Source of the DNA: Oceanicoccus sagamiensis
Lineage (GTDB): Bacteria > Pseudomonadota > Gammaproteobacteria > Pseudomonadales > Dasaniaceae
Length of the DNA stretch: 64,000 nt
Reading direction: 5' to 3'
Assembly: GCF_002117105.1 (NCBI RefSeq)
Contig: NZ_CP019343.1
Location: 2,728,001-2,792,000, forward strand
The notes beneath the pieces are model-generated. The model ran no database searches. It was not told the DNA's origin and saw only the letters and a program-made list of their open reading frames with translations. This document shows positions 9,486-28,300 of the stretch, one piece after another; position 1 is the first letter of the stretch, and each line of letters starts with the position of its first letter. The translations under genes and the position numbers were made by a program.

Positions 9486-9813
9486 GTGTTATTCTGACAA
9501 AGCGCATTACTGTCTGGAATCAATACATGCTTTTGGTGGCCCGTAGGGTGGATTGTAATCCACCGGTTATAACGGGCTTTTGGCAGGGCTTGGTGGATTG
9601 TAATCCACCCTACGGTGCTTGAAAGGCTGCGAGAGCTTGAAGAGTGAGTAAGGACTGGGCTTTTACGAGCCTTCAGGGATGGGTGTGTAGCGTCTTCTCA
9701 CTCCACTCCCAATATCCCATTCCGGCGATTATTGCCCCTTCAAGGCGCGGCACCATCCAATACAGATATTCGCCTCGGACAGCAGCGTATACAGGCGAGC
9801 ATGACTTCCACGA
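9486..9813. other. Gene-free gap holding repeat copy 3
   Basis: Between the convergent ends of sspB and dolP there is repeat copy 3 (9541-9615). The rest (9616-9813) shows no convincing gene. A 91-codon open frame here lacks any recognisable family feature and runs into the 3' end of dolP on the other strand. Confidence 0.6.
9541..9615. repeat. Long palindromic intergenic repeat, copy 3
   Basis: The arms at 9541-9564 and 9592-9615 enclose a 27-bp loop. Both arms read GATTGTAATC on the plus strand, so they mismatch at the arm centers if folded together. Read on the minus strand, its loop and left arm resemble copy 4, which suggests the element has a direction and that copies 3 and 4 lie in opposite orientations. 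Confidence 0.85.
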
Positions 9814-14157: not shown

Positions 14158-14205
14158 GCCTTAGTCGGCTTGTTATTCCCCTCAAAGCATGGCAATCTCC
14201 CGCCC

Positions 14206-14613
<408 letters not shown>

Positions 14614-14689
14614 ATCTTTTCCCAATATATCGGTAACTCTTTGTTATAACTGGAAAAATTCTCTTCTATTATGCCTCTAGCCCTTAGAG

Positions 14690-16003
14690 GTGTTACATAA
14701 AGTGCTACATAAAAGGTACTTGTTTAAGCGTGGTTCAGTATTTTATTTTAGGTGGCGTGTACCAGATTTGCTAAGGCCCCAGTTAGGTCGAACAGAGGTT
14801 GTTCAGTCACTGCATACTGATAGCTACAAAACTGCTCAAGTAAGAGGTGCGAAGCTCTTTATTCAGGTAGCTGGTCTGAGAGATGCCTATAAGTCTTATC
14901 AAAATCACGAAATTACCGAATCACAATTTCAAAGTAGGCTGATCGAGTTCAATGTCCTTAAATCGTCCCAGAAGGGGTTTATAGTAAATGGAACGATTAG
15001 TAGTGATGTGAGTCATGGTTTTCCAGAGAGTTCTCGTATGAGTCTTTCTGAGGTATTCATTAGCTTTCTTGAGTATAAAGCACGGAATGGTTTGTCTATT
15101 CGTATTCAGCAGGAGTATCGCCGCTATTTTGAAGTCATTCTTCACCTGTTGGGTGATAAGCCAGTAGATCAGGTTACTCGAAAATGCCTCAAGGGTGTGA
15201 TTCAGGCATATTCAAAGATGCCAAAGAGGAATCTAGGTGAGTACAGGAATTTGGGTATTGAGGAGCTAGTTAAAGTAGATGTGCCTATAGATCATAGAGT
15301 TGCTCCAAAGACTGTTGGGCAGGTTAAGAAGCTCCTCCATGGTATTTTTGTTCATGCTGTTTATGAGTTGGAAGTGGTGGAAAGTTCACCAGCAATAGAC
15401 CTTAAGGTGAATCTGAAGGCTAATACAACATTTGCTGCTTTTAATGATTCAGATATAAGGAAGTTATTGGCCGTATTAAGTAATCAAAAAAAGGAGTGGC
15501 ATAAATGGGTATTGCTCCTAGGGATTTATACTGGAGCTAGGAGGGGAGAGTTAATCAAGCTATGTAGCAGGGATGTAAAAAGGGATGAAGTAACAGGACG
15601 CTATTACATCATGATTACCGACGAGTATGGATCAGTTAAAACGGAAGGGTCAATTCGTCAGGTTCCTATGCATTCTGAGTTGCTTCGGGCTGGATTTATC
15701 AATTTCTCATCAAGTAGGTCGGGGGTTCTATTTCCTGAGCTGAAGCAGCAGCAAGTTACAAGTTGGTTTATGCGACTTAGAGATTCTCTAGATATTCCAT
15801 CTGTGGATGATTATGGTAATCGCAAGGTTTTTCATTCATTGCGTCATACATTTATTACAAAGGCTAGGTCAGCAGGTGTCTCTGTTGATAAGGTTCAGCA
15901 GGTAGTAGGGCATGAGAAGAAGGGTTCGGGTGTAACAGATCGTTATACTCACCGCTTTCCTCTTGGTGATGTTTTAGATGTGGTAGATGTTATAAAGTAC
16001 TAA
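14690..16003 (+). CDS. Tyrosine recombinase (island integrase)
   Basis: The 437-aa integrase has a short N-terminal domain typical of phage-like integrases (RGSVFYFRWRVP). A SAM-like core-binding domain (about 115-225) follows, and then the catalytic domain. The full catalytic set is visible: Arg284 (TGARRGEL), probable Lys317, His382 and Arg385 (HSLRHTF), His408 (VVGHEKK) and nucleophile Tyr419 (DRYTH). The first GTG at 14690 overlaps two TACATAA repeats and gives an odd LHK repeat, so the GTG at 14702 or a later start may be the true one. It should catalyse recombination at rnpB. Confidence 0.93.
   Translation: MLHKVLHKRYLFKRGSVFYFRWRVPDLLRPQLGRTEVVQSLHTDSYKTAQVRGAKLFIQVAGLRDAYKSYQNHEITESQFQSRLIEFNVLKSSQKGFIVNGTISSDVSHGFPESSRMSLSEVFISFLEYKARNGLSIRIQQEYRRYFEVILHLLGDKPVDQVTRKCLKGVIQAYSKMPKRNLGEYRNLGIEELVKVDVPIDHRVAPKTVGQVKKLLHGIFVHAVYELEVVESSPAIDLKVNLKANTTFAAFNDSDIRKLLAVLSNQKKEWHKWVLLLGIYTGARRGELIKLCSRDVKRDEVTGRYYIMITDEYGSVKTEGSIRQVPMHSELLRAGFINFSSSRSGVLFPELKQQQVTSWFMRLRDSLDIPSVDDYGNRKVFHSLRHTFITKARSAGVSVDKVQQVVGHEKKGSGVTDRYTHRFPLGDVLDVVDVIKY
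14692..14712 (+). repeat. Phased TACATAA repeats at left island end (candidate arm sites)
   Basis: GTTACATAA (14692-14700) and GCTACATAA (14704-14712) lie exactly 12 bp apart, 80 bp inside attL. The same motif recurs three times at 12-bp spacing near attR. This fits integrase arm-type binding sites. Confidence 0.6.
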
Positions 16004-16019: not shown

Positions 16020-16997
16020 TCATATTAAGTCTTCATTTGATAGGTATAGAGTGTTTATTGAGTCACCCTTTATTCTCCATAAGAAGCCATGATCTTTAAT
16101 TTTCTCACCTTTCTCTGATAGTGTGAAATCCAAATAAATTTTCCCTTCTCTAACGAGTCTCAAAAAGCGAATAATTGATGGGTGTTGGCAGTATTTTACA
16201 GAATTGATAGTGAAGCTCGGAGGAGAACTCTTAGCTGTGATGTAAATATATGCAGTTCTTGTGTGTTTGGATAAAAGCGCTGATTCAATATCTTCTGCTT
16301 CATAAGAGCAAAGTTCTCGATTTTTATGCATTACTGATATTTTTTGATCAGTTGTTGCTAGGTAGAATCCTAAGCTGTCAGGGGTATTATTAAAGGATGT
16401 GTATAGAGCTTTTCTTCCTCTTTTAGGGTCTTGATAGGCGAACTTTCTAAATAGATCGTTTTTATCTATTGCATAATTGTAGTTGCTCGGTGTTCTCGAA
16501 AACAAAGTTTGTAAACTCTTATCTTTCTTTGTTTTAAGTTCTATGCCCATGAAATCAGGTTTCTTGCTGCTGTTTGCAGATATGCCTAGGGCTTCTTCCA
16601 GTGCTAGGCCATGCTTTCCTGTTCCTTTTTTATCTGCTTTTATCGCTCCCTTATTCTTCAGGAATGACAGCTTCTCCCGAAGTATTTCATGGGGTTCAAG
16701 TGAGGGGATGGGTGTTCGGTCTAACTGGTCTAAAACAACCAGTCTGAGTAGTTTTTGGTAGTTGAATCTGGGTTTGAGGCCGTTGCAATATGGTAAGTTT
16801 TCATTGTGAAGTACGGCACTGATATTCTGGAACTTAAGCTCAAATGATTTTGGAGTGCGATTTGGGTGAAGTTTAGAAAGATCGTTATATATGTGGGATT
16901 TAACAGGCTTTTCACCATTCTTTTCAGCGCTATATAGCTTTAGATATGCTGTAACTGCTGCGGATACCTCCTTTTCTGACCAGTTGCTTCCCCTCAT
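16020..16997 (-). CDS. MvaI/BcnI-family restriction endonuclease with N-terminal targeting domain
   Basis: The 325-aa protein has two parts. Residues 1-90 (NWSEKEVSAAVTAYL to KFQNISAVL and GLKPRFNYQ) form a domain I recognise from the N-termini of many bacterial HNH and restriction proteins. Residues 100-325 resemble MvaI/BcnI nucleases: Glu134/135 in LALEEALGI, then Asp148, Glu153 and Lys155 in PDFMGIELKTK form a PD-ExK site. MvaI/BcnI enzymes are monomers that cut short sequences. No partner DNA methyltransferase with a DPPY or Pro-Cys motif is seen on the island. It converges on the integrase. Confidence 0.75.
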   Translation of the reverse strand: MRGSNWSEKEVSAAVTAYLKLYSAEKNGEKPVKSHIYNDLSKLHPNRTPKSFELKFQNISAVLHNENLPYCNGLKPRFNYQKLLRLVVLDQLDRTPIPSLEPHEILREKLSFLKNKGAIKADKKGTGKHGLALEEALGISANSSKKPDFMGIELKTKKDKSLQTLFSRTPSNYNYAIDKNDLFRKFAYQDPKRGRKALYTSFNNTPDSLGFYLATTDQKISVMHKNRELCSYEAEDIESALLSKHTRTAYIYITAKSSPPSFTINSVKYCQHPSIIRFLRLVREGKIYLDFTLSEKGEKIKDHGFLWRIKGDSINTLYLSNEDLI

Positions 16998-17010
16998 ATC
17001 GCAGTTGTCC

Positions 17011-17766
17011 TCATTCCACTACAGTCTTTATAGATGATAAGCCGAGGCTTCTCCTCTTCTTGAGTATTAGTCCAGCTATTGCAGAAGTAAATAACACTGC
17101 TGATGGAGGTAGGGGGATTTCAGTGGTTCTGACTAAATACGATCCGAACGCATTAGTTGCAGAGTTAGAGGAGGGGTATGTTGTTGTCCAGTATTTTCCA
17201 ATAGAACCCTCGTCATCAATACTGTCGTTTGAATCAAAATGTAAAGTATTTCTATGAGGTGCAGCTCTGTAATATATTTCCATGTCACTGACTAATCCCA
17301 TTTGTTGGCCAAAACCAAAAGTATCACCAAGAATTCCTCTTGTGCGCCCAGCAGCATAGCTTGGGATGTCGAACTGATATACATTGGGGTCAGTTGAATT
17401 ATCATAATACCAATCTTGAGTATCCCCAAATAACTTTATAAAAGATTCAATCTCCTCATCAGTTCCAATAGTGTATGACCTTCCTCCGGAGTAATTCCTT
17501 CTAAACCAGTTTGAAACAAGTGTATGAAATTCAGATGTTGTGGCATATCTCCAGCCTTGTTTGCCAAGACCGGAAGTTGAGTTTATCTCAGTAAAAACAT
17601 CGTTATAGCTTCTTCCAGCTGTCTCCGTAACATCCAGCCATTCGAGGCTTGTGTTAGTGTCAAGAGTAATGTTTCCTAAATCGATAAAAGCTGCTTTTAC
17701 AGATAATGAAAGCGTTAGGCCCACTAGGACCAATGTGTTTTTTAGCATGGAGAAGCTCCTTTTCAA
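17011..17766 (-). CDS. VPLPA-CTERM-like secreted protein with DUF1566/Lcl-like domain
   Basis: The 251-aa protein has a signal peptide (about 1-25) and the opening DLGNITLDTNTSLEWLDVT shared with DUF1566/Lcl-type surface proteins. At the C-terminus are IPLPPSAVLF, a hydrophobic helix and a basic KKRR end. This tail is the exosortase-type sorting signal (VPLPA-CTERM class). It is paralogous to the gene at 19147. No exosortase lies in the window, so sorting would need a host enzyme. Confidence 0.7.
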   Translation of the reverse strand: MKRSFSMLKNTLVLVGLTLSLSVKAAFIDLGNITLDTNTSLEWLDVTETAGRSYNDVFTEINSTSGLGKQGWRYATTSEFHTLVSNWFRRNYSGGRSYTIGTDEEIESFIKLFGDTQDWYYDNSTDPNVYQFDIPSYAAGRTRGILGDTFGFGQQMGLVSDMEIYYRAAPHRNTLHFDSNDSIDDEGSIGKYWTTTYPSSNSATNAFGSYLVRTTEIPLPPSAVLFTSAIAGLILKKRRSLGLSSIKTVVE

Positions 17767-17948
17767 TTATGAGTATAATTTTTATTTGTGTTAAATATCT
17801 CAAATGAAAGGCATTAAGTAAAGCCGGGGTTTGTATTGGCTTGATAATCATGATGCTAATAGATGTCAGGGAGATTCAGCTCATGAAACCCCAAATAGTT
17901 GTATGGAATACTGATTTATGGGGTGTAAATAATTATAAGGTATTATAG

Positions 17949-18361
17949 ATGTTGATGTTTTTTATGAGTATCTCGATGAAGAGTATTCTCTTGATGCTGG
18001 TTGTATAAAGTCAGCAGTCGCTGAAGTGGAGTGCTTGGAGCTTTCTGCTCAGGCTGTTTGTAGACTTGGTTTAAGGTTAATGGATAATGCTCATCATTCA
18101 GAGTACGTTATTGTGATACCTGATCAGCGTACTGAGGATTATCTAAAGGAGATTTACTTTCCGTTTGCCAACTATCATGGGTATATTGTTAAGGATGAGG
18201 AGCAGAGAATTGCTGGTAGAAAGAGGGGGGATAAGAATAAAGGTACTCAGGCAAAGGTTGAAAGGGTTGACAGTTTGCGTGCTGGTGGGATGTCATTAAA
18301 TAAAGCAGTTGATGTGGTAGGTATTGGTAAGGGTACTTATTATAATTATAAGAAGTTATAA
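17949..18361 (+). CDS. Small protein with C-terminal resolvase-like helix-turn-helix (probable frameshift)
   Basis: The clear open part runs from GTG 18026 to 18361 (111 aa) and ends with a Hin/resolvase-like HTH (SLRAGGMSLNKAV then GKGTYYNYKKL). The same frame stays open and protein-like upstream to about 17939 but lacks a start codon. Adding one T to the T6 run at 17958-17963 joins it to an ATG at 17949, which has an AAGG ribosome site, giving about 137 aa. The protein may regulate the island. Its middle part is not recognised. Confidence 0.5.
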
Positions 18362-18390
18362 CTGTTATCTATATATTTTACTGTAGTTAT

Positions 18391-18807
18391 ATGAATAATA
18401 ATAAGTTTAAAGGGATGCTTGGCATGAATGAAGAATTTGGTGGTTATGTAGTAATTTTATTATTGATATTCTGTTTTTGGTGGGTTGAGCCATTTGGCTT
18501 TTTTAGTAGTGAAATAGACTTTTACCCTAGGGTGTGTGTGGATGATTCCTTTTCAAAAGGTGAGTGTGAAAAGTGGAAGATTGAGGATTTAATTAGATTT
18601 AAGGTGTATGAGGATGGTCAAAAAGTTATTCGTAAAGGGGGTTCTAGTATCCGCTCTCTTAAGGATTGCCATGTTTGGGATAAGAATAATTGGGAGTGTA
18701 GTACGCTTCAGGTTGTTGATGGGGAGTTGTCTGGTATTTATTTAACTCGGTATAGTTTTATTACTAAGCCTGAATGGTATGTTCTTAATTTTTTTCGTAA
18801 GCCTTGA
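18391..18807 (+). CDS. Hypothetical single-span membrane protein
   Basis: The 138-aa protein has one hydrophobic helix near residues 18-38 (YVVILLLIFCFWWV) and a polar C-terminal part with several cysteines. I do not recognise a family. It starts 29 bp after the HTH gene and could be co-transcribed. Base composition is AT-rich like the rest of the island. Confidence 0.5.
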   Translation: MNNNKFKGMLGMNEEFGGYVVILLLIFCFWWVEPFGFFSSEIDFYPRVCVDDSFSKGECEKWKIEDLIRFKVYEDGQKVIRKGGSSIRSLKDCHVWDKNNWECSTLQVVDGELSGIYLTRYSFITKPEWYVLNFFRKP

Positions 18808-19146
18808 TAGGTGTTTAATGTGAATGGAGGTTTTGATAGGTGTGGCGGGAAGTGCAAGGGCTTACAAAGCTGCTGTTGTCTGTTCATAACGGCGAGATGG
18901 AGTTGGTTTTTCAACTTTAATAAATCTAGGTAAGTATGCTTGATGAGCTTATAAACGAATGAGAGAGCTGCTGAAGGGCTGGTTAGGGGTTTATGAGGTT
19001 GTTGATAGTGATGCTGCTTAGGAAGAGGCTTTAATCACTTGTACTTTGATCTAGTTCAAAAGTATTAGATAGGTTGAAGCTGATAACTGGTAAGATTGGT
19101 TACATAAATAAACATAATTATAAATACTACGAAAGGATGCACTCTC
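18808..19146. other. Gene-free stretch inside the island
   Basis: I see no gene, tRNA or terminator here. A lone GTTACATAA occurs near 19101-19109, matching the island-end repeats but without a phased partner. A GAAAGGA ribosome site just before 19147 serves the next gene. Confidence 0.5.
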
Positions 19147-19766
19147 ATGCTGAAACAAACCTTGGCCCTGTTGGGCCTAATACATTCACTGTCTGTTAAT
19201 GCTGTCATTGTAGATTTGGGGAGTATTACCCGTGATACTTCAACAGGGTTAGATTGGCTAGATTTAACCGAGACAAACGGTCGGAGTTACGTTGACGTAA
19301 GTGGAAAACTGGGCGAGGGCCAAGAGTTCGATGGCTGGCGATACGCTTCTGTAGATGAGGCTCAAGCTCTTTGGAAAAACTTTGGAATCAGTAGTGGCAC
19401 GATGGTAAGTATTAGTAGGGCAGACACGCTCCAGTATAATAGCCTTGTGGTGGCTGTTGATGTTTTGGGTAATAGCGTTCTCGATATTGGTGACAATTAT
19501 TTTGATTTTGGTGCGATTGGCTTTACAGCTGACACTGTGTTCAATGACTCGGGGGAGGCTTTGTACCAAAAAGTTTCAGGTTTCTTTAGTAATCCTAATG
19601 AAGATTATGTGAATGCTTATTCACCTGATGCTCCAGCGCTTTTTCCTTCCGGCGACCCGGTATTGGGAGTTATCTTGTGAGGCCGTCTGCTGTGCCAGTC
19701 CCACCAGCTGCTTGGCTATTTGTCTCGGCTTTAATAGGTTTGATAGGCATCAAGCGCAGAAAGTAA
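19147..19766 (+). CDS. VPLPA-CTERM-like secreted protein (frameshifted near its sorting tail)
   Basis: The first frame gives 177 aa: a signal peptide (1-19), then DLGSITRDTSTGLDWLDLT and GWRYAS, paralogous to the protein at 17011. It stops at 19680. The next frame directly continues with SYLVR, VPVPPAAWLF, a hydrophobic helix and KRRK (stop at 19764-19766), the expected sorting tail. One extra G in the GGG at 19665-19667 restores a 206-aa protein. This is either a real inactivating deletion or a homopolymer miscall. Several other genes in the window show the same pattern. Confidence 0.72.
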
Positions 19767-19794
19767 GTAGTTTATACAGGCTGATTACACTGTC

Positions 19795-19818
19795 GAGGCT
19801 CCCCGTTGGGGCCTTTTT
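19795..19818 (+). terminator. Rho-independent terminator after the VPLPA gene
   Basis: AGGCTCCCC (19796-19804) pairs with GGGGCCT (19808-19814) around a GTT loop, with one bulged base, and is followed by a T-run. It closes the transcript of the upstream secreted protein. Confidence 0.7.
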
Positions 19819-19860
19819 AAATATCTGGTAAGTTTTCTCTTTATTGATAAATTGGTAGCG

Positions 19861-20457
19861 ATGATGAAGCTTTTTTATTTGCATGGTTTTAATAGTGGGT
19901 CTAAGCCCAGAGCTGAAAGAATAAGGCTGCTACAAAATAAGGAGTTTGAGGTTGTTTGCCTTGACTATGACAGCTCCGCTATATTTCCTCTTTTGGTTGA
20001 GTACTTTGATAGGATGCTTCTTGAGTATAAGGGTAATGATATAGGGTTTGTTGGTACATCTCTTGGTGGGTTCTGGGCTAATTTCTTAGGTGATAGGTAT
20101 GGGTGTGGATGGGTCTCTATAAATCCTTCCTTGGTGCCTTCTGCCTCTTTAAAAAAATATTTGGGAAAAGCTCTTACTAACTATGTAAGTGGTGAAAAGT
20201 GGGTTTTGGGTGAAGATGTTCCGGATTCATACTCCATTGCGTTTCAGTTAAATGTCGATGGGCTAGTTATTTTAGATAAAGGGGATGAGGTTATTGATTC
20301 TGTAGTTACTATAGAGAAATTGGATGGTACTGGCGTTGAAGTTATTAGTTATGAAGGTGGCGGGCATCAATTCGACCATTGGAAAGAGGCTGTTGAAGAA
20401 ATAAGCTTTCATTTTAATTCTAGATTAATTGGTGTTGGTGGTGAGTTTAATGGGTGA
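19861..20457 (+). CDS. YqiA/YcfP-like alpha/beta-hydrolase (UPF0227 type)
   Basis: The protein of about 198 aa has the esterase plan of the YqiA family: YLHGFNSGSKP at the N-terminus, the nucleophile elbow GTSLGGFWAN and a C-terminal GGGHQF histidine. It probably hydrolyses small esters; the substrate is unknown. The open frame begins at a TTG (19852), but ATG 19861 or 19864 fits family length better. Confidence 0.78.
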   Translation: MMKLFYLHGFNSGSKPRAERIRLLQNKEFEVVCLDYDSSAIFPLLVEYFDRMLLEYKGNDIGFVGTSLGGFWANFLGDRYGCGWVSINPSLVPSASLKKYLGKALTNYVSGEKWVLGEDVPDSYSIAFQLNVDGLVILDKGDEVIDSVVTIEKLDGTGVEVISYEGGGHQFDHWKEAVEEISFHFNSRLIGVGGEFNG

Positions 20458-20508
20458 TGAAAAATTGGTATCTTTTAATGATAGAGATGCTTAGTCTAGG
20501 AGATCGTT

Positions 20509-21261
20509 TTGGAAAATTTTAGATACTATGTGTATGAGATAAGAACTCCGGATGGCGAGGTTTTCTATGTAGGTAAAGGAGAGGGTGGTCGAAAAGATGC
20601 GCACCTTAAAGAAGCTCTTAGCTCCGAAAAAAATAGTGATAAATTAACAAGATTAAGGGATATTATAAATCAGAATCAGGAACCTCTCGTAAGGGTGGTT
20701 GGTCGCTTTAAGACTGAGTCAGAAGCTTTTGCTGTGGAGTCAACCTTGATACATTGGGTGTATGGAATTGACAATCTGGCTAATGATCAGTCGGGTCATG
20801 GGTCAGATTACATTCGCCCTAAAGGGTTGTTGGATCATATAGACGGTATTGATACTGCCGAAAATGTGAATTTACAGGACTTGAAAAATCAAGTTACTCA
20901 GCGTGGAGGGAAGTTGGAGCTTGTTTTTGATGTGTTAACTAAGCGTGTGGCTGGTAGAGATGTTTCGATGATTCAGGCTGGAAAAAAAGATAAGTACATG
21001 TCTATAAAAATCTCTAGTGATGTGGCATTACGGGTGTATGTGACTTCAGGAAAAGATACCCGTCTTAATACTTGGTTTGGATTGGAGCCGGGAGGGGATA
21101 AAAAGAAGTTAAATGAATTTGCTAGCGCTATTAACTGTCGTGTTGATTCCAATGGTGTGTTCCGTCCTGATGCGTGGCTTAAAGTTAAGATTGGGCTTGA
21201 TGATATAGATATGTTGGTAGAAAAAATATGTGAAGCTGATGATTTGTTTGTCAGTTCGTAA
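20509..21261 (+). CDS. GIY-YIG nuclease-domain protein (LEM-3-like)
   Basis: The 250-aa protein starts at TTG, with an AGGAG ribosome site 8 bp upstream. The N-terminal GIY-YIG domain (about 5-95) has YYVYEI and YVGKGEGGRK, with a Glu (SEAFAVEST) where the metal ligand is expected. This form resembles the LEM-3-like subgroup. The C-terminal half (about 130-250) is not recognised. It is followed on the same strand by an HNH nuclease and a methyltransferase, which suggests a DNA-processing or defence cassette. Confidence 0.75.
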   Translation: MENFRYYVYEIRTPDGEVFYVGKGEGGRKDAHLKEALSSEKNSDKLTRLRDIINQNQEPLVRVVGRFKTESEAFAVESTLIHWVYGIDNLANDQSGHGSDYIRPKGLLDHIDGIDTAENVNLQDLKNQVTQRGGKLELVFDVLTKRVAGRDVSMIQAGKKDKYMSIKISSDVALRVYVTSGKDTRLNTWFGLEPGGDKKKLNEFASAINCRVDSNGVFRPDAWLKVKIGLDDIDMLVEKICEADDLFVSS

Positions 21262-21293
21262 CTCGTATATAACCTATCTTTTAGTCGTTTGGA

Positions 21294-22316
21294 ATGTCGG
21301 TTTATATGGAATTCTACGAAATAACCCCAACATTAGAAAACTACTGGAGAGGTATTATTCTCTTTGGTAAGAACTCTGCTTCATATAAGTTTGCTCTAGG
21401 AAAATCCTTGATTGATCTTGCTGGTAGTCAAAATGACCTAATTAAGATCGAAGACTTGGCTGTTCCGTATTCAAAGTATCTTTGTGGGCATATTGAAATT
21501 GCTGACAAGCAGGGTAACAGTGATGGAGAGTTTCTGCGTACGTGCAGGAAGTATAATTTAAACGAAGTTTCCCATGAGGAATTGATTTCAAAGGCAATAA
21601 GGCTAGGCTTTGGTGATGTTCTAAAGGCTTTTCATAACGTGCCTTCTGGTGAGGTTCCAGTAAAATTCTTTATTGAAGAAGGGAGGGGGGTCAAAAAAGG
21701 AATTAGAATCACAGATAATTTTCTCAATCTCTTTGCAGATGTTGATCGTCATGATCTGTATGAAGAAACGGAGTCTCGCTGGAGGCTTGTTGAAACTGCT
21801 TGGGAGTTAAATGTTTCAAGAAATCTTATTGCTGTTAGTGCTAGTCGTGATGGAGATGAATTGTATGCTAATAATAGGGGTAGGCGTATTAATATAACAA
21901 GTAGTAGACCGGCTTTAAATGGTTATCAGAAAGGCAGTTGCTTTTATTGTTATGGTACGATTGAAATTACAGCTGGCAGTAAAGAGTTGGCTGATGTTGA
22001 TCATTTTTTGCCTCATACTTTAATGGTTAATAATATAGTTGGTAATCTTGATGGGGTTTGGAATTTGGTTTTGGCCTGTCAGTGCTGTAATAGTAAGAAG
22101 TCTTCTAAATTGCCAGCTATAAAGTTTCTGGAGCGTATTCATAGAAGGAATGAATATCTGATTACTAGTCATCATCCTTTGAGAGAGACCTTGATACGTC
22201 AGACAGGGAATAATGAGCAGGCAAGAGTAGCGTATCTTCAGGATAGTTATAATAAGGCAAAAGAGGTTTTAATTCATACTTGGGAGCCTGATCCAAAAGG
22301 CCCTGAAACATTCTAA
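21294..22316 (+). CDS. HNH endonuclease
   Basis: The 340-aa protein has a C-terminal HNH domain (about 220-275): zinc cysteines in SCFYCYG and CQCCNSKK, the catalytic DH in VDHFLPH and the central Asn in VWNLVLAC. The N-terminal 200 residues are unrecognised and may sense or bind a target. It ends 4 bp before the methyltransferase start, so the two are probably translated together. Confidence 0.8.
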   Translation: MSVYMEFYEITPTLENYWRGIILFGKNSASYKFALGKSLIDLAGSQNDLIKIEDLAVPYSKYLCGHIEIADKQGNSDGEFLRTCRKYNLNEVSHEELISKAIRLGFGDVLKAFHNVPSGEVPVKFFIEEGRGVKKGIRITDNFLNLFADVDRHDLYEETESRWRLVETAWELNVSRNLIAVSASRDGDELYANNRGRRINITSSRPALNGYQKGSCFYCYGTIEITAGSKELADVDHFLPHTLMVNNIVGNLDGVWNLVLACQCCNSKKSSKLPAIKFLERIHRRNEYLITSHHPLRETLIRQTGNNEQARVAYLQDSYNKAKEVLIHTWEPDPKGPETF

Positions 22317-22320
22317 GAAT

Positions 22321-22905
22321 ATGACTGATACCAATAAATACTACGAAGATCATGCTGAGGAGTTTTATCAATCTACTGTTGAGGTTGATATGAGTCCTAT
22401 CTATCAGAGGTTTCTACCATTGATACCTGAGGGTGGGGCTATTCTAGATGCTGGATGTGGTTCAGGTAGGGATTCTTTGTATTTCAAGACGAATGGTTAT
22501 GAAGTGACTGCTATGGATGCTTCTGAGGCTCTCTGTAAGCTCTCTGGAGAGTTGTTAGTTCAAGATGTTCATTGTATGGGGTTTGAGGATATGGCTTGGG
22601 AGGATAGCTTTGATGGTGTCTGGGCATGTGCTTCATTGCTTCATGTAAGTAGAGATAACCTTCCTAGTATTATGAATAAGTTCTCAAGGTCTCTTAAAGC
22701 TGGTGGAGTCCTGTATGCTTCTTTTAAGTATGGTGATACTGAGAGAGAGCAGGGTGGAAGGGCTTTTACGGATATGAATGAAGAGTTGTTTGATCAGTTG
22801 CTAAAGTCTACTCCAAGTTTAGAGTTGATAGAGAGTTGGGTAACTGTTGATAGAAGAGTTGATAGAGATGAGAGTTGGTTGAATGTTGTTGTGGCCAATA
22901 GTTAG
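22321..22905 (+). CDS. Class I SAM-dependent methyltransferase
   Basis: The 194-aa protein has a Rossmann-fold SAM site (ILDAGCGSGRDSLYF), the acidic loop AMDAS and motif IV WACASLLHV. It lacks the DPPY or Pro-Cys motif of DNA methyltransferases, so it probably acts on a small molecule, protein or RNA rather than protecting DNA. Its tight link to the HNH gene suggests a shared role. Confidence 0.8.
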   Translation: MTDTNKYYEDHAEEFYQSTVEVDMSPIYQRFLPLIPEGGAILDAGCGSGRDSLYFKTNGYEVTAMDASEALCKLSGELLVQDVHCMGFEDMAWEDSFDGVWACASLLHVSRDNLPSIMNKFSRSLKAGGVLYASFKYGDTEREQGGRAFTDMNEELFDQLLKSTPSLELIESWVTVDRRVDRDESWLNVVVANS

Positions 22906-23002
22906 GATATATCTGATCTTATTTAAGAGGAGCTGTTTTGCATGGTCGAAATCTTCGGATTACTACCTAAATTTTATTGTGAGATAGTTTTAGGGGGGAT
23001 AG

Positions 23003-23296
23003 GTGAAAAGCATCAGAGATACAATAATTTTTTTATCCTTGGTATATGTGTGCTTCAGCGATGTGGACTTAATGCTGTCAATAGTTCTTTTTGCTTTTGG
23101 GTCACTTGCGTTGAGGTATTATGGTTTCGTTCGCGTTTACCCTTTAGGTGACGATGAAGAGATAAACAAAGAAATTAAACTATTACTAAAGGATGAGTTG
23201 AAGGCCAATTACCACCTTTTTTTTCTGGGTTGTGCCTTTGCCGTTGTGATTGCGGCGATATATCTACTCATTCAAGACTTGGGGTTAATGGCTTAG
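23003..23296 (+). CDS. Small two-span membrane protein
   Basis: The 97-aa protein starts at GTG, with a strong ribosome site (AGGGGGGAT) just upstream. Two hydrophobic segments (about 8-40 and 70-93) flank a charged middle (DDEEINKEIKLLLKDELK). No family is recognised. An overlapping frame from 22942 has no such support. Confidence 0.55.
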   Translation: MKSIRDTIIFLSLVYVCFSDVDLMLSIVLFAFGSLALRYYGFVRVYPLGDDEEINKEIKLLLKDELKANYHLFFLGCAFAVVIAAIYLLIQDLGLMA

Positions 23297-23386
23297 TGTT
23301 GTAACCATTCTGCATCTTGGTTTCTCACCGCTTGGGCTTGTTAGTATGGTTGTATAAATTTATATAAATATAAAAGGTAGTTTTCT

Positions 23387-23728
23387 ATGGTCAAAAAAGT
23401 CCTGATTTTAGTTGTTTTAATTTCAATACCATTAAGCGAAATTGCAGCTAAATCTTATACGCCAAGTCAGTTACGAAGTATGGTTAATTCAGGGGATTAT
23501 CCAGATCAAGGTGGTGTGTCAACTGAAACTCAATCAATCTCATTTTCTGCGTGTGTTACAAAAGTCAAAGGTGTTCTGTCTTCGGTTTCTGGTCAATACC
23601 CATATAAAATTATTGTTAACACCAATGTTTTATATACATCTAAACTGTGGACAAATGATGCTGCAATGACTCTCTCATGTAGCTCTCTTGATAGAAAGTT
23701 AGTTATTACAACCGCAAAGTATAAATAG
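23387..23728 (+). CDS. Hypothetical secreted protein
   Basis: The 113-aa protein has a signal peptide (VLILVVLISIPLSEIAA, cleavage near residue 21) and two cysteines (in SACVTK and LSCSS) that could form a disulfide. I do not recognise a family. An AAGGTAG ribosome site lies upstream. It is the last gene of the island. Confidence 0.55.
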   Translation: MVKKVLILVVLISIPLSEIAAKSYTPSQLRSMVNSGDYPDQGGVSTETQSISFSACVTKVKGVLSSVSGQYPYKIIVNTNVLYTSKLWTNDAAMTLSCSSLDRKLVITTAKYK

Positions 23729-23988
23729 ATAGGAATAGTTGCTGCTCCTGAAATCAAATTTAGACTCGTCCACATACTTTTTAACTGTTCTTCGGCCGCT
23801 AGGGAGGCCTTTGGCAAACCCTTACCCCTAAATAGGGTTTAAAGCCCTGTATAGGCCGATTTGAGGGTGTTTGAGGTCTTTGGGGTGGTTGGTAGAGGAT
23901 TGTAAAAGGGCTGTAGGAGGCTTGTAAGGCTATTGTTATGGGGTTGTACCTGTCTTTGCTAGTTAGCTCAGTAATTTCCACTTTAACT

Positions 23989-24021
23989 GCTACATAAAGT
24001 GTTACATAATTTGCTACACAA
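23989..24021 (+). repeat. Phased TACATAA repeats at right island end (candidate arm sites)
   Basis: GCTACATAA (23989), GTTACATAA (24001) and GCTACACAA (24013) are spaced exactly 12 bp apart, 120 bp inside attR. They mirror the two copies next to attL. The rest of the 23,729-24,139 gap shows no gene. Confidence 0.6.
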
Positions 24022-24139
24022 ACTCATTCTTGGTGTAGTAGAAGATGTTTTTTCGGCAACGTAAGATTTATCTATAAATTGGCTGTAGCCCTTATTCCGC
24101 GTGGTCTGGGTACATTCTCTAAAATACTTTGGTAGTACT

Positions 24140-24191
24140 TGCGTAGATGAATGACTGTCCAACGACAGAACCCGGCTTATCGGTTGGCTCA
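24140..24191 (+). repeat. attR: displaced 3' end of rnpB
   Basis: This is the right copy of the 52-bp direct repeat, with one mismatch to attL at 24184. It presumably is the original host 3' end of rnpB, pushed 9.6 kb away by integration. Confidence 0.92.
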
Positions 24192-24200
24192 AAAAAATCA

Positions 24201-24236
24201 AACCCTGCGGTAACTTTTGTTATCGCAGGGTTTTTT
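24201..24236 (+). terminator. Strong terminator after attR (probable original rnpB terminator)
   Basis: AACCCTGCG (24201-24209) pairs with CGCAGGGTT (24224-24232), and the inner TAAC/GTTA extends the stem to about 14 bp with a TTTT loop. A T-run follows. It sits 10 bp after the displaced rnpB end, where the native rnpB terminator would be. Confidence 0.88.
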
Positions 24237-24407
24237 ATAACCAGCTATCACTCAGCTACATATTGGCTAACACATTGCATGTCAGGGAGGCTGACTGTGA
24301 TGTTGTCGTTATGGGGTGGCCATTAAGAGAGTCATTGAGATAGTAGATCAGTGGGATCTCAGCTTTTCAGTGTATAACACTGGTACTTATCGCCAGCTCC
24401 CGAAAAA

Positions 24408-25040
24408 CTAGAACTCCCCCTTTATCCATGCGACAAGGCTGTATCGGCGGCCTTTAGTGACCGGTGTCACCCGGTGCAAGATAAAGCTGGGGAACACAAT
24501 AGCGGCTCCCATTTTCTGGGGTAAACTAATGCTATCACCATTAATATTAAACTCGAGATTGCCGCCCTCATACTCACTGGGGTCATTGAGAGGGATCGAA
24601 ATGCTAATCTTACGCTGCAAAGCACCGCCGCCCCAATCCATGTGCCAGCGATAAAAACCTTGCACTGATTCATCATAAATGGCTAGTTGAATCCGCTGAT
24701 CGATAGCGCTAATTTTAAACTGGTATTTCTTATTGCTGTTTTCTGCAATACCCAGCACCGTTTGGTAAATGTGTTCATGTTTATCGGGGGCAAGCCAGTG
24801 TACCTGGGAGCGCCGCACTTCATCGTTGTTTGTAAATTCTTCTTTCTTGGAAACGATACTTTGAATACTGTCTTGGTTTACTAAGCTCCGCAGTTCAGCC
24901 GTTTGTTGTGGGCTTAGAGCGTTATCTACAGACATGATAATAGATTCACCGGGTTGAAGGCCTTCTCTCTTTACCTTTGAGTCTTCAGTATGCGAGTTTA
25001 CGTTACGCATTTGTTGCTGCATTCTCTCAAATGGGTCCAT
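24408..25040 (-). CDS. 2OG-Fe(II) oxygenase (PKHD-type hydroxylase-like)
   Basis: The 210-aa protein has a jelly-roll dioxygenase core with the iron triad His133 and Asp135 (RWHMDWG) and His189 (FILHRV), plus Arg199 for 2-oxoglutarate. GGNLEFN is typical of the PKHD/prolyl-hydroxylase group. It probably hydroxylates a protein or peptide side chain. The N-terminal 35 residues are polar and disordered-looking. It lies alone between attR and decayed tlpA and rnpB fragments, so it may be cargo of an earlier insertion. Confidence 0.78.
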   Translation of the reverse strand: MDPFERMQQQMRNVNSHTEDSKVKREGLQPGESIIMSVDNALSPQQTAELRSLVNQDSIQSIVSKKEEFTNNDEVRRSQVHWLAPDKHEHIYQTVLGIAENSNKKYQFKISAIDQRIQLAIYDESVQGFYRWHMDWGGGALQRKISISIPLNDPSEYEGGNLEFNINGDSISLPQKMGAAIVFPSFILHRVTPVTKGRRYSLVAWIKGEF

Positions 25041-25149
25041 GCTAATCCTATTTATTTTTTAAATTATTGACTTGTAATATGTACTTGGATCAAAGCTAAG
25101 TCAATATATAACAGATATGTTTTATATAGACTGGTTGCAATGACTATGC

Positions 25150-25242
25150 ATTCAATAATTCCAATAAAGTCTGCTCTGTCAGGGGGGCGCTATAATTTGT
25201 CGGCCAGGTTTAAATATACATGTGGCGGGTAAAATATTTGGT
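25150..25242 (-). pseudogene. Decayed 3' end of a tlpA-like thioredoxin gene
   Basis: Read on the minus strand, this stretch encodes a tail (TEQTLLELLN) almost identical to the C-terminus of the intact TlpA-like gene at 28817 (TEQTLLDALN). The match continues at the DNA level up to GGGTAAAA near 25,230 with small deletions, then breaks where the rnpB-like remnant begins. It is a fragment, not a working gene. Confidence 0.6.
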
Positions 25243-25371
25243 GGTTCACGTAGCAAGGGCGAATAGGCCCGTTATGGCGCTTGGCTGAGCTGTAAACGGT
25301 GAGGTTGCCGGTGACGCAAAGTGTAGATTAATAGCTGTGCAAGACAGAATCCGGCTAATCGGCGGTCTCAC
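25243..25371 (+). pseudogene. Decayed rnpB 3' fragment (remnant B)
   Basis: It aligns with rnpB 14466-14613: the conserved block reads AGCAAGGGCGAATAGGCCC, followed by GAGGTTGC, GTAGATTAATAG and a near-complete end (AGACAGAATCCGGCTAATCGG). Many substitutions and deletions mean it cannot be a functional RNase P RNA. The remaining bases to 25,632 show no gene. Confidence 0.7.
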
Positions 25372-25632
25372 TCAGCAGTCATCATGGGCTTTGGAGCGAT
25401 ATGAGGTCCGTTTGTTACCATGGCTCTTTCCAGGGCTGTGCCCAATGTCTTCAGTTAGCAGAGCCTGTCAGCCACTATTGGGCATAAGAAGCTCAAGAGC
25501 TCTCAAGCTGTGTTTTACGGTATTAAACCCAATATGTTTGTTGGCTTAATTTATAGGCTCCTGTATTCTGTAGTGATACGTTGTTGTTTAGGCTTTAAAT
25601 AATAAAAAACCGATAAATTGGTAATAATAGTC

Positions 25633-26823
25633 ATGGCAAAAATCATCTCAGATAATCCGGTTGTCAAAAATATTATGGAAAGTATGGTCCTGCTGATAGA
25701 AGAGCAGGGCGGGTCAATCCACAAAAAAATTGAAATACGATGCCAAAATAATGAGCTTAGTCTCCATTCAAAACTCAGCTCAAAACTTAAAGATGATGTC
25801 ATCTTTATTCCAGATAGTTGCCTGCCTTCTATTGATGATTTCGACTTTCAGTTAAAGGGCAGTGTCATTACATGCAAAGCTAAAACAGACAGCGTTGTAC
25901 AGTCACAACAAAGAATCATGGAATTACTTGTTAGTTTGTATTCTGAAACCAATAAATTTTCCAATGTAGAAGCGTCTATACCAGCCCTTTTTTATAGAGA
26001 TAATCCTGAAATAACAAAGAGTTTTAATTCATTTGGGCATAAACTGGAGGGTGTGGCTGAGATTGACGGTCAGGCTCTTATTAGTGCGTTTTTTGGTACA
26101 AGGGTTGTTAGTTACTATCCTTTTGGTGAGGACAGCTTCCGGCGCAATCTTCTTATGCCGCTCATTGATAGTGTCAATCATTATTCACGTTGTTTTTCTT
26201 TAAATACTCTCTCCACTGATTCTCAGCAGGGTTTGTCTTTGCCGCATCAAAAAATTGATGGTCAGGGTGATCAGCTGTTTTACCGTTACCTTAAAATGGA
26301 TGCGATGCGATGCTTTCTTAATTATGGTTTTTTTGACCAGGCTGCGCTATTTGTAGCGTCAGTGCCCACTGAGATAACGATTAAAGAACATACTTTTATT
26401 ATTGATAATGCGCAGGTTTTTAACACTAAGAAGGTTTATGGAGAGGCATTGTTAGAACAAATTCGCTTCTATCTGCCATCGGTAGAGCATAATGGCAATA
26501 CTCTGGAACTTAGTTCTATTTACATTCCTGTTTCAGAGAATGCACCCGTTCTTCGCCTGGTATTGCAGATTTTGGCGCTGCAAGCGCTTGGTATCAGTGA
26601 GCCTAATGAAACTTCCCAGCAATATGTGAAAGAATTAGAAGATCATATTATCGAGGCTACGCTTGATTTTTATCAGAGCCTAATGGGATTGATGTCTGAA
26701 GATTTCCAGTCAGAAAATATTGCTATGGATAGTGCGCTGAAAAACACGATTGAGTTTAGTGTTAAGCTTGTTCAGCAATATAAATATAAAATGCGAAATT
26801 ATCCTTATATTTTTAACCACTAA
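25633..26823 (+). CDS. SET-domain protein, LSMT/SETD3-like lysine methyltransferase
   Basis: The 396-aa protein starts from ATG 25633; the frame extends five codons to a TTG. It shows the SET plan of Rubisco-LSMT relatives: VIFIPDSCLP, then LMPLIDSVNHYS with the SAM-binding Asn-His (about 182-183), then GDQLFYRY and NYGFFD with the catalytic Tyr (about 231). A helical C-terminal region (about 300-396) fits the LSMT substrate-binding domain. Such enzymes methylate protein lysines and are uncommon in bacteria. It is followed after 46 bp by a two-domain 2OG oxygenase, so they may act in one modification pathway. Confidence 0.65.
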   Translation: MAKIISDNPVVKNIMESMVLLIEEQGGSIHKKIEIRCQNNELSLHSKLSSKLKDDVIFIPDSCLPSIDDFDFQLKGSVITCKAKTDSVVQSQQRIMELLVSLYSETNKFSNVEASIPALFYRDNPEITKSFNSFGHKLEGVAEIDGQALISAFFGTRVVSYYPFGEDSFRRNLLMPLIDSVNHYSRCFSLNTLSTDSQQGLSLPHQKIDGQGDQLFYRYLKMDAMRCFLNYGFFDQAALFVASVPTEITIKEHTFIIDNAQVFNTKKVYGEALLEQIRFYLPSVEHNGNTLELSSIYIPVSENAPVLRLVLQILALQALGISEPNETSQQYVKELEDHIIEATLDFYQSLMGLMSEDFQSENIAMDSALKNTIEFSVKLVQQYKYKMRNYPYIFNH

Positions 26824-26869
26824 GACTTTGGTTGGTATGTGATGGTTTCAAGAAAAAAGAGGTAGTGCT

Positions 26870-28093
26870 GTGACCATGCCAGTAGAACTTGATGAATCGC
26901 CAGAGGGAGATTTGATATGTCAGTTTCCTAATGCAAAAAAATTAGGCGGTGACAAGGATGAGCTTTATGTGCTTGAGGGTTTTTTGGATGCTGATGAATG
27001 TGAGTTGTTGATCAAGAAAATCCGAGGGGGCCGAATTAAACAGCAGAAATCCAACGCAGAGTATCAAGCTGATAGTAACAATCTGGGTTTGGAGATAGTT
27101 CCGCTTAATCAGTCCGACAGTATAAGTAAAGTGGTGGATGATCGAATCAAAGAATATATGGGGGTCACGGTAAGTGAGCCTGTCAATATTGTTGGGCACT
27201 ACCTTGCTCCAGAATTACATCAAAATGAAACCTTAAATGGCACTAATGATACCGCTGGTTGGTTTTACACCGTACACTTGAATAATGTTGAAGAGGGTGG
27301 GGCCACTAAATTTGTCACCGCTTCTACCGGGGAGATTGTCATTTCAGCCAAAGCTGGGCAGGCAGTTTTTTGGCGAGGAAGCAGTGATGATATTCAATAC
27401 CAGGAACAGTCGGTAACCACGGGTGAGAAATTTATTATCTCAAAACAATGGCCTGGTTTTTCTGACAAATTTAAACCCCATCTGCATAAATATATCCCTG
27501 CATTTACGGAAATTGGGTTTGAAAAATTCCAGGTTCCATCAGAGATTTATCAAAAGATTAAGGCCTTCTACCAATCGAATAAACATTTAGAAATCGATGA
27601 AAAGTTGGGTAAACGCCTTACCTCTATTAAGAAGAACCACCCTAGTAGTTATCTGGAATTGCCTGATGTCCTGAGGCAGGAGATGATTGATACGCTGGCG
27701 CCTATGTTTGAACAATGGAGTGGGCAGAAGCTGCTAATAACGTCAATTTACGGCGTGCGCTCCTATAAAAAAGGGGCTAACTTGAGTATGCATGTCGATC
27801 GCTATCGAACACATATTATCAGTGCCATTATCAATGTGGATCAAGCTGTCACTAAAAAATGGCCGCTGCATGCCTATGATCATTTTGGTAGATTGCATCG
27901 CATTTATCTTAAACCAGGTGAAATGATTTTCTATGAATCAGCGAGAGTACCTCACGGTCGACCGACGCCACTTAATGGTAAAAACTTTGCCAACTTGTTT
28001 ATTCATGCTCAGCCAGTGGGTTGGCAACTCTATGAGAAAGCCTTGACAAAGTTGATATTAAATAAGACAGCGGTAGAGCAGGTGGTATTTTAA
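26870..28093 (+). CDS. Two-domain 2OG-Fe(II) oxygenase with degenerate N-terminal P4H domain
   Basis: The 407-aa protein has two jelly-roll modules. Residues 31-196 resemble prolyl-4-hydroxylase (YLNxxEEGGxTxF-like VHLNNVEEGGATKF, and SKQW with the 2OG lysine), but the iron ligands are replaced: no His-x-Asp after Tyr111 and no distal His. Residues 255-388 have an intact triad: His308 and Asp310 (SMHVDRY) and His362 (PHGRP). The N-terminal module is probably a binding domain. The GTG start has an AGAGG ribosome site; ATG 26876 is an alternative. It probably hydroxylates a protein. Confidence 0.75.
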   Translation: MTMPVELDESPEGDLICQFPNAKKLGGDKDELYVLEGFLDADECELLIKKIRGGRIKQQKSNAEYQADSNNLGLEIVPLNQSDSISKVVDDRIKEYMGVTVSEPVNIVGHYLAPELHQNETLNGTNDTAGWFYTVHLNNVEEGGATKFVTASTGEIVISAKAGQAVFWRGSSDDIQYQEQSVTTGEKFIISKQWPGFSDKFKPHLHKYIPAFTEIGFEKFQVPSEIYQKIKAFYQSNKHLEIDEKLGKRLTSIKKNHPSSYLELPDVLRQEMIDTLAPMFEQWSGQKLLITSIYGVRSYKKGANLSMHVDRYRTHIISAIINVDQAVTKKWPLHAYDHFGRLHRIYLKPGEMIFYESARVPHGRPTPLNGKNFANLFIHAQPVGWQLYEKALTKLILNKTAVEQVVF

Positions 28094-28169
28094 ACTGTTG
28101 ACTGAAGTATGTATAAATAGGCCCCTGATGGCCCACTGAATACTCTTTTTATAACAGCACCTAGCAGTA

Positions 28170-28300
28170 ATGTCTGGCATGGCCCCCGTTTGTAACAAGG
28201 TAAATAAGCCCGTATAGCGGTGTACTTGCACTGTGGGGTGGGGGGTTAATAAAGCATTAGAGCGGCGTAATGCTTAGAGAAATAACGGTTCAAGGCTGCG
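28170..28300 (+). pseudogene. Decayed rnpB 3' fragment (remnant C)
   Basis: It aligns with rnpB from GCATGG (14452) onward: AACAAGGTAAATAAGCCC matches the conserved AGCAAG block, followed by GTGTACTTGCACTGTGGG, TAAAGCATTAG and GCGTAATGCTTAGA. The final P1-proximal bases are hardly recognisable. It is more decayed than remnant B. The rest of the 28,094-28,397 gap holds only a possible AAATAGGCCC scrap near 28,115. Confidence 0.6.

Follow-up and report, generated by a model that had tools for sequence, protein, structure and literature searches.

Organization of the rnpB locus

We analysed a window of 64,000 bp from the chromosome of the marine bacterium Oceanicoccus sagamiensis (NZ_CP019343.1, positions 2,728,001 to 2,792,000; positions below are those of the window), in which rnpB, the gene for RNase P RNA, is followed by a predicted integrative island and by three displaced pieces of the rnpB 3' part. 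These pieces are named fragments 1, 2 and 3 in order rightward of the intact gene, and the coordinates of all features are given in Table 1. An earlier reading of this stretch, made by a model from the letters and their open reading frames (the sequence-only reading), had described a near-perfect right attachment site (attR) and two more diverged rnpB fragments beyond it, and had explained them by successive insertions at one hotspot.

Table 1. Features of the rnpB locus in the window.
Feature	Position	Strand	Evidence
rnpB (RNase P RNA, class A), target gene	14205..14617	+	RF00010, 315.7 bits; only complete copy in window
Left attachment site (attL) copy of shared 53-bp block	14562..14614	+	blastn, 52/53 identical to 24140-24192
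Tyrosine integrase (Phage_integrase, DUF6538, DUF3258)	14690..16003	+	Pfam; start 72 bp past rnpB
Left arm-type repeats TGYTACAYAA x2	14691..14712	+	Exact motif scan; overlap integrase start
Island cargo	16020..23728		Pfam: MvaI/BcnI-type restriction endonuclease, UPF0227 protein, GIY-YIG, HNH, methyltransferase, small proteins
Right arm-type repeats TGYTACAYAA x3	23988..24021	+	Exact motif scan; ahead of fragment 1
Fragment 1, attR of present island	24140..24192	+	blastn 52/53 (98%); profile 38.1 bits
Strong hairpin and T run after fragment 1	24193..24240	+	Sequence; folding -24.5 kcal/mol
2-oxoglutarate (2OG)-Fe(II) oxygenase, segment 1-2	24408..25040	-	PF13640, E 2.5e-15
Fragment 2, putative old displaced rnpB 3' end	25243..25374	+	Profile 47.6 bits; RF00010 24.6 bits
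401-aa protein, segment 2-3, not confirmed as SET	25618..26823	+	No Pfam, no PDB match
407-aa protein with C-terminal 2OG oxygenase motif, segment 2-3	26870..28093	+	34% identical to PF13640 protein in genome G078
Fragment 3, putative old displaced rnpB 3' part	about 28167..28296	+	Profile 21.1 bits

The rnpB 3' pieces were located with a nucleotide profile built from the rnpB genes of 28 relatives, which was chosen because the Rfam class A model RF00010 alone misses fragment 3. Matches were obtained on the + strand at 24139-24192 (E 1.1e-10), 25248-25372 (E 1.4e-13) and 28160-28296 (E 1.6e-5). The best score in a shuffle control (10 Mb obtained by shuffling the stretch at 23.9-28.9 kb 2,000 times at the dinucleotide level) was 7.3 bits, as compared to 38.1, 47.6 and 21.1 bits for the three pieces, indicating that they match rnpB far better than chance. 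The diverged fragments of the sequence-only reading are thus real, with starts (25243 and 28170) that were correct to within a few bases, and its near-perfect attR was likewise recovered at 24140-24192. A blastn search with the rnpB surroundings found pieces on the same strand at 24140-24192 (52/53), 25310-25373 (77% over 65) and 28214-28293 (72.5% over 80). The class A covariance search that had been suggested as a check performed less evenly: fragment 2 was seen, fragment 1 was barely seen (17.9 bits, E 0.012), and fragment 3 was missed.

The best alignment of fragments 2 and 3 was to rnpB of this genus. Fragment 2 starts approximately 151 bp before the rnpB 3' end and extends to the 3' terminus, with a 10-nt deletion in the P18 region; fragment 3 starts approximately 170 bp before the end. 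Identity to the present rnpB was 52/53 for fragment 1, 94/125 (75.2%) for fragment 2 and 90/119 (75.6%) for fragment 3. The increase in decay with distance that had been proposed therefore holds for fragment 1 against the other two, but a graded decay from fragment 2 to fragment 3 was rejected. Consequently, the earlier statement that the oldest piece lies outermost loses its footing in decay, and the order of fragments 2 and 3 would follow from the geometry of insertion only.

The present island

Fragment 1 is the attR of the present island, an AT-rich element of 9.5 kb (14.6-24.2 kb). The island interior has a GC content of 39.0%, and flanking core stretches of equal length never fall below 47.1%. 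The window contains five copies of the repeat TGYTACAYAA, as compared to 0.5 expected in 64 kb. They lie at 14691, 14703, 23988, 24000 and 24012, with a spacing that is always 12 bp, and all are found at the island ends, two at the left and three at the right. With an integrase located 3' of rnpB on the same strand, a piece of rnpB at the far end and arm repeats at both ends, the present island has the anatomy of an rnpB-directed island at each of its ends. The crossover must have been confined to 14562-14614, and the 3' end of the present rnpB would have been supplied by the island. The present rnpB lacks the strong terminator hairpin found after fragment 1, as would be expected if the old 3' end had moved together with its terminator, and this hairpin is probably the displaced former terminator of rnpB. 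The island also encodes two related secreted proteins on opposite strands (17011-17766 and 19147-19680), one of which is weakly Lcl_C-like.

Cargo of the older segments

The segments between fragments 1 and 2 (1.05 kb) and between fragments 2 and 3 (2.8 kb) have GC contents of 42.6% and 39.9%, respectively, the latter below every core stretch of the same length. Based on the comparison to a core median of approximately 48.5%, both segments look foreign. Each contains a 2OG oxygenase gene as had been noticed from the sequence, the one in segment 1-2 by its PF13640 match and the 407-aa protein of segment 2-3 by its alignment to a 2OG protein and its retention of the HxD...H...R motif. The SET label given to the 401-aa gene was not supported, no match being found in Pfam, NCBIfam or a PDB profile search; a paralog of this protein likewise matched nothing in Pfam or PDB, and an AlphaFold model computed from the single sequence of the 401-aa protein had a predicted local distance difference test score (pLDDT) of 35 and was unusable. 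Neither the 401-aa nor the 407-aa gene had a match in any congener searched. For the 2OG gene of segment 1-2, neither G001 nor G002 gave a match, and all matches elsewhere were distant, the nearest congener being G003 with a partial match (59% over 83 residues).

The paralog of the 401-aa protein is located in the same genome (G000:C1:4346869-4347918), side by side with a 2OG paralog. This arrangement suggests that the cargo of both older segments is likely to represent one functional set. The paralog pair (4.347-4.349 Mb) adjoins a second oxygenase, a methyltransferase and sulfotransferases. No rnpB pieces were found near the paralog locus (4.35 Mb) or the other oxygenase loci. The wider row at G000:C1:4344295-4350359 (L108 6295-12359) consists of a methyltransferase, an Asp/Asn-type oxygenase, the 401-aa paralog, the 2OG paralog and a TPR sulfotransferase, and resembles a cluster of modification genes akin to the cargo in the window.

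The right flank of rnpB in relatives

We compared the right flank of rnpB with that of relatives. In the window, the array of rnpB pieces is followed by a block extending from a thioredoxin gene to SppA. This block is located elsewhere, without rnpB pieces, in the congeners G001, G003 and G005. In the sister species G002 it is once more adjacent to an rnpB piece, the right end of which is different; the piece is preceded by arm-like repeats of the kind TATCAGTTTATG, and similar repeats are found after rnpB in the close relative G006. As the rnpB scar of G002 lies at this flank too but differs from those in the window, the rnpB 3' site appears, from these sequence comparisons, to have been used repeatedly in this genus. 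The congeners vary at the rnpB right flank, the contigs of G002 and G006 break beside rnpB, and a clean empty site was found only in E. coli. A BLAST survey of 390 genomes of the order, which misses old pieces such as fragments 2 and 3, found four with a clear second rnpB piece, namely G002, G177, G296 and the window genome. Separately, the genes right of rnpB are wholly different among G001, G003 and the window genome, with no visible islands (a psp operon is found there in G001), and rearrangements may also have their breakpoint on the 3' side of rnpB.

The integrase family at rnpB

Relatives of the integrase were sought in GTDB genome contigs using protein patterns from three integrases, and 18 were found. 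Sixteen of the 18 are located 3' of rnpB on the same strand, 12 of them within approximately 0.1 kb; partial-match relatives were found at larger distances from rnpB. The hosts include Saccharospirillaceae, Thiotrichaceae, Methylophilales, Oleiphilus, Motiliproteus, Methylophaga, Marinomonas, Oceanospirillaceae, Shewanella, Limnobaculum, Microbulbifer, Pseudoalteromonas and an Osedax symbiont, such that rnpB-adjacent integrases are present in many Gammaproteobacteria and in one Methylophilales genome. In the integrase tree, the window integrase groups with those of Thiotrichaceae, Methylophilales, Shewanella, G296 and Saccharospirillaceae (support 100/99), E. coli and Limnobaculum form a second clade, and the Oceanospirillales-type elements form a third. 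A phage collection contained only distant integrases (<30%). In a plasmid collection the best match came from an E. coli chromosome that had been entered as a plasmid and in which the integrase lies at rnpB; a Klebsiella plasmid also gave a match, which was not at rnpB. Microbulbifer has an integrase relative away from rnpB (L086 10001-11230) and a second copy at rnpB in the same genome (L094).

Five intact elements have rnpB tails at their far ends, of 175 bp (Marinomonas, G177), 161 bp (G296), 141 bp, 117 bp and 176 bp; in L083, L085 and G177 the tail is followed by mraZ, the usual neighbour of rnpB. The lengths of fragments 2 and 3 fit with other crossover points, given the tails of 117-176 bp in these intact relatives. 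This agrees with the earlier suggestion that previous elements may have used a different crossover point from the present one, as does the tail of approximately 28 bp in E. coli. The Osedax symbiont locus L097 has an independent stack of two rnpB scars.

In the Marinomonas element, all differences between attL and attR lie to the right of AAAT|AGG, in the 3' two thirds of the 175-bp block, and a congener matches attR at the differing sites, indicating that attR holds the host alleles. As the differences are confined to the 3' side and the congener matches attR, the crossover lies near the 5' end, in the first approximately 58 bp of the block, unlike that of the window island. The island-supplied and host tails of Marinomonas profundimaris rnpB differ at eight sites (L087 9769-9943). 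These include the very conserved AGATGAATGACTG, which here is AGATGACTGACTG, the host version being left only in attR; possible explanations are that the RNase P RNA is altered or that the assembly is in error.

Elements at rnpB in E. coli

A related integrase was found in 33 of 5,426 complete E. coli genomes. In all five neighbourhoods read (H7, ECC-1470, Z1323CEC0007, G3/10 and NCTC9966) it lies right behind rnpB, and flagellin (flk-type) cargo is present in H7, ECC-1470 and NCTC9966. The ECC-1470 islet has been described as the FlkA islet, able to cause unilateral phase variation (PMC5422975); its location at rnpB was seen here in the E. coli genomes. When K-12 was used as the empty site, identity on the left stopped at the rnpB 3' terminus and on the right resumed in the K-12 113-bp repeats. 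The E. coli elements cross over within approximately the final 28 bp of rnpB. Several of these 113-bp tandem units are present behind rnpB in K-12, and hold rnpB 3' pieces with no genes between them.

Origin of the displaced pieces

We propose that a family of small integrative islands uses the rnpB 3' region as its attachment site and has a tyrosine integrase dedicated to it. Each island would bring its own copy of the rnpB tail, and with a crossover within rnpB the gene would gain an island-derived 3' end, and its former 3' end, in the present case together with the terminator, would be moved to the far end of the island. Fragments 2 and 3 would then be the tails that at least one earlier element displaced when its crossover took place at a more 5' position in rnpB, with loss of the integrase afterwards, and each new insertion at rnpB would shift the older scars outward. 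We consider the case strong that the rnpB 3' end is an integration hotspot at which displaced tails are left behind, and put the probability that fragments 2 and 3 are scars of earlier elements at approximately 0.8. Several observations weigh against this interpretation of the two fragments. There is no integrase open reading frame within 24193-28159 and no TGYTACAYAA repeat in either older segment, fragment 3 ends approximately 30 nt short of the rnpB 3' terminus, fragments 2 and 3 have decayed equally, and the adjacent 2OG and 401-aa paralogs (G000:C1:4346869-4348667) would not be predicted from two unrelated insertions. Of the successive insertions proposed in the sequence-only reading, the displaced rnpB ends and the hotspot are retained; a separate element for each old segment is unproven given the lack of an integrase and arm repeats and the adjacent paralogs, and the two independent older insertions are only putative.

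The missing integrases, the equal decay and the adjacent paralogs would also fit with fragments 2 and 3 framing one old composite element, which acquired the 2OG, 401-aa and 407-aa genes at one time as a functional set. However, one insertion leaves one tail, the two tails start at different positions in rnpB, and two crossovers in rnpB would still be required at some time; we regard a single composite element as possible but rather unlikely. The gene-free tandem units of K-12 provide a precedent for an origin of fragments 2 and 3 by simple duplication in tandem, with foreign genes inserted later between the copies of the rnpB 3' end. The pieces in the window, however, are separated by kilobases of DNA that contains AT-rich genes, begin at different positions in rnpB, and have lengths that resemble the attR tails of real islands, making such a duplication improbable. 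Least credible is an ancestral rnpB neighbourhood with a partial rnpB duplication, a very remote prospect even though G002 shares the outer flank and likewise has an rnpB piece next to it. That the whole region is ancestral is contradicted by the order of rnpB then mraZ in other families, by the location of the outer flank elsewhere without rnpB pieces in G001, G003 and G005, and by the two cargo genes without a match among the congeners.

Relation to known systems

Islands in tRNA and tmRNA genes displace 3' ends and leave gene fragments (TIGER/Islander resource, PMC12424338; tRNA fragments, PMC9897764). The proposed system is similar in that the element restores the RNA gene, displaces its 3' end and leaves fragments as scars, but differs in that the target is RNase P RNA and that several crossover positions are used in one gene. 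The Marinomonas profundimaris element has the same order of rnpB, integrase, cargo and displaced rnpB tail (there followed by mraZ), but its tail is 175 bp, its cargo is different and its integrase is 37% identical. Like the window island, the E. coli flk-type islet is a small island directly 3' of rnpB with a related integrase and unrelated cargo; it differs in its crossover near the rnpB terminus, its flagellin cargo and the placement of its integrase in a separate clade. We found no paper in the open literature that names rnpB as an attachment site, but the original reports on island mapping and the flk islet were not covered, so that absence is not shown.

Nearly all life depends on RNase P RNA as an essential ribozyme. 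On balance we lean toward the existence of a proteobacterial integrase family dedicated to rnpB, the crossover of which has shifted many times (tails of approximately 28-176 bp), such that the ribozyme has been repeatedly rewritten and the scars keep earlier 3' domains. An integrase family that swaps the rnpB tail at each integration would tie mobile DNA to ribozyme evolution, and would place the flagellin islet of E. coli within a widespread and largely marine family. Besides the genes for tRNA and tmRNA, rnpB would become a landing site that can be mapped, with an integrase plus a displaced rnpB tail of about 28-176 bp as the search rule, and decayed rnpB tails would be a record of past occupancy that is overlooked by BLAST.

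The K-12 113-bp repeats resemble the window array in that several rnpB 3' pieces are stacked downstream of rnpB, but they are arranged head-to-tail. These repeats (L115) and the L096 scar (9559-9707) have in common an insertion after ACGACA and an altered GAAAGCGGCTTA, and the repeats may also be derived from old attachment sites.

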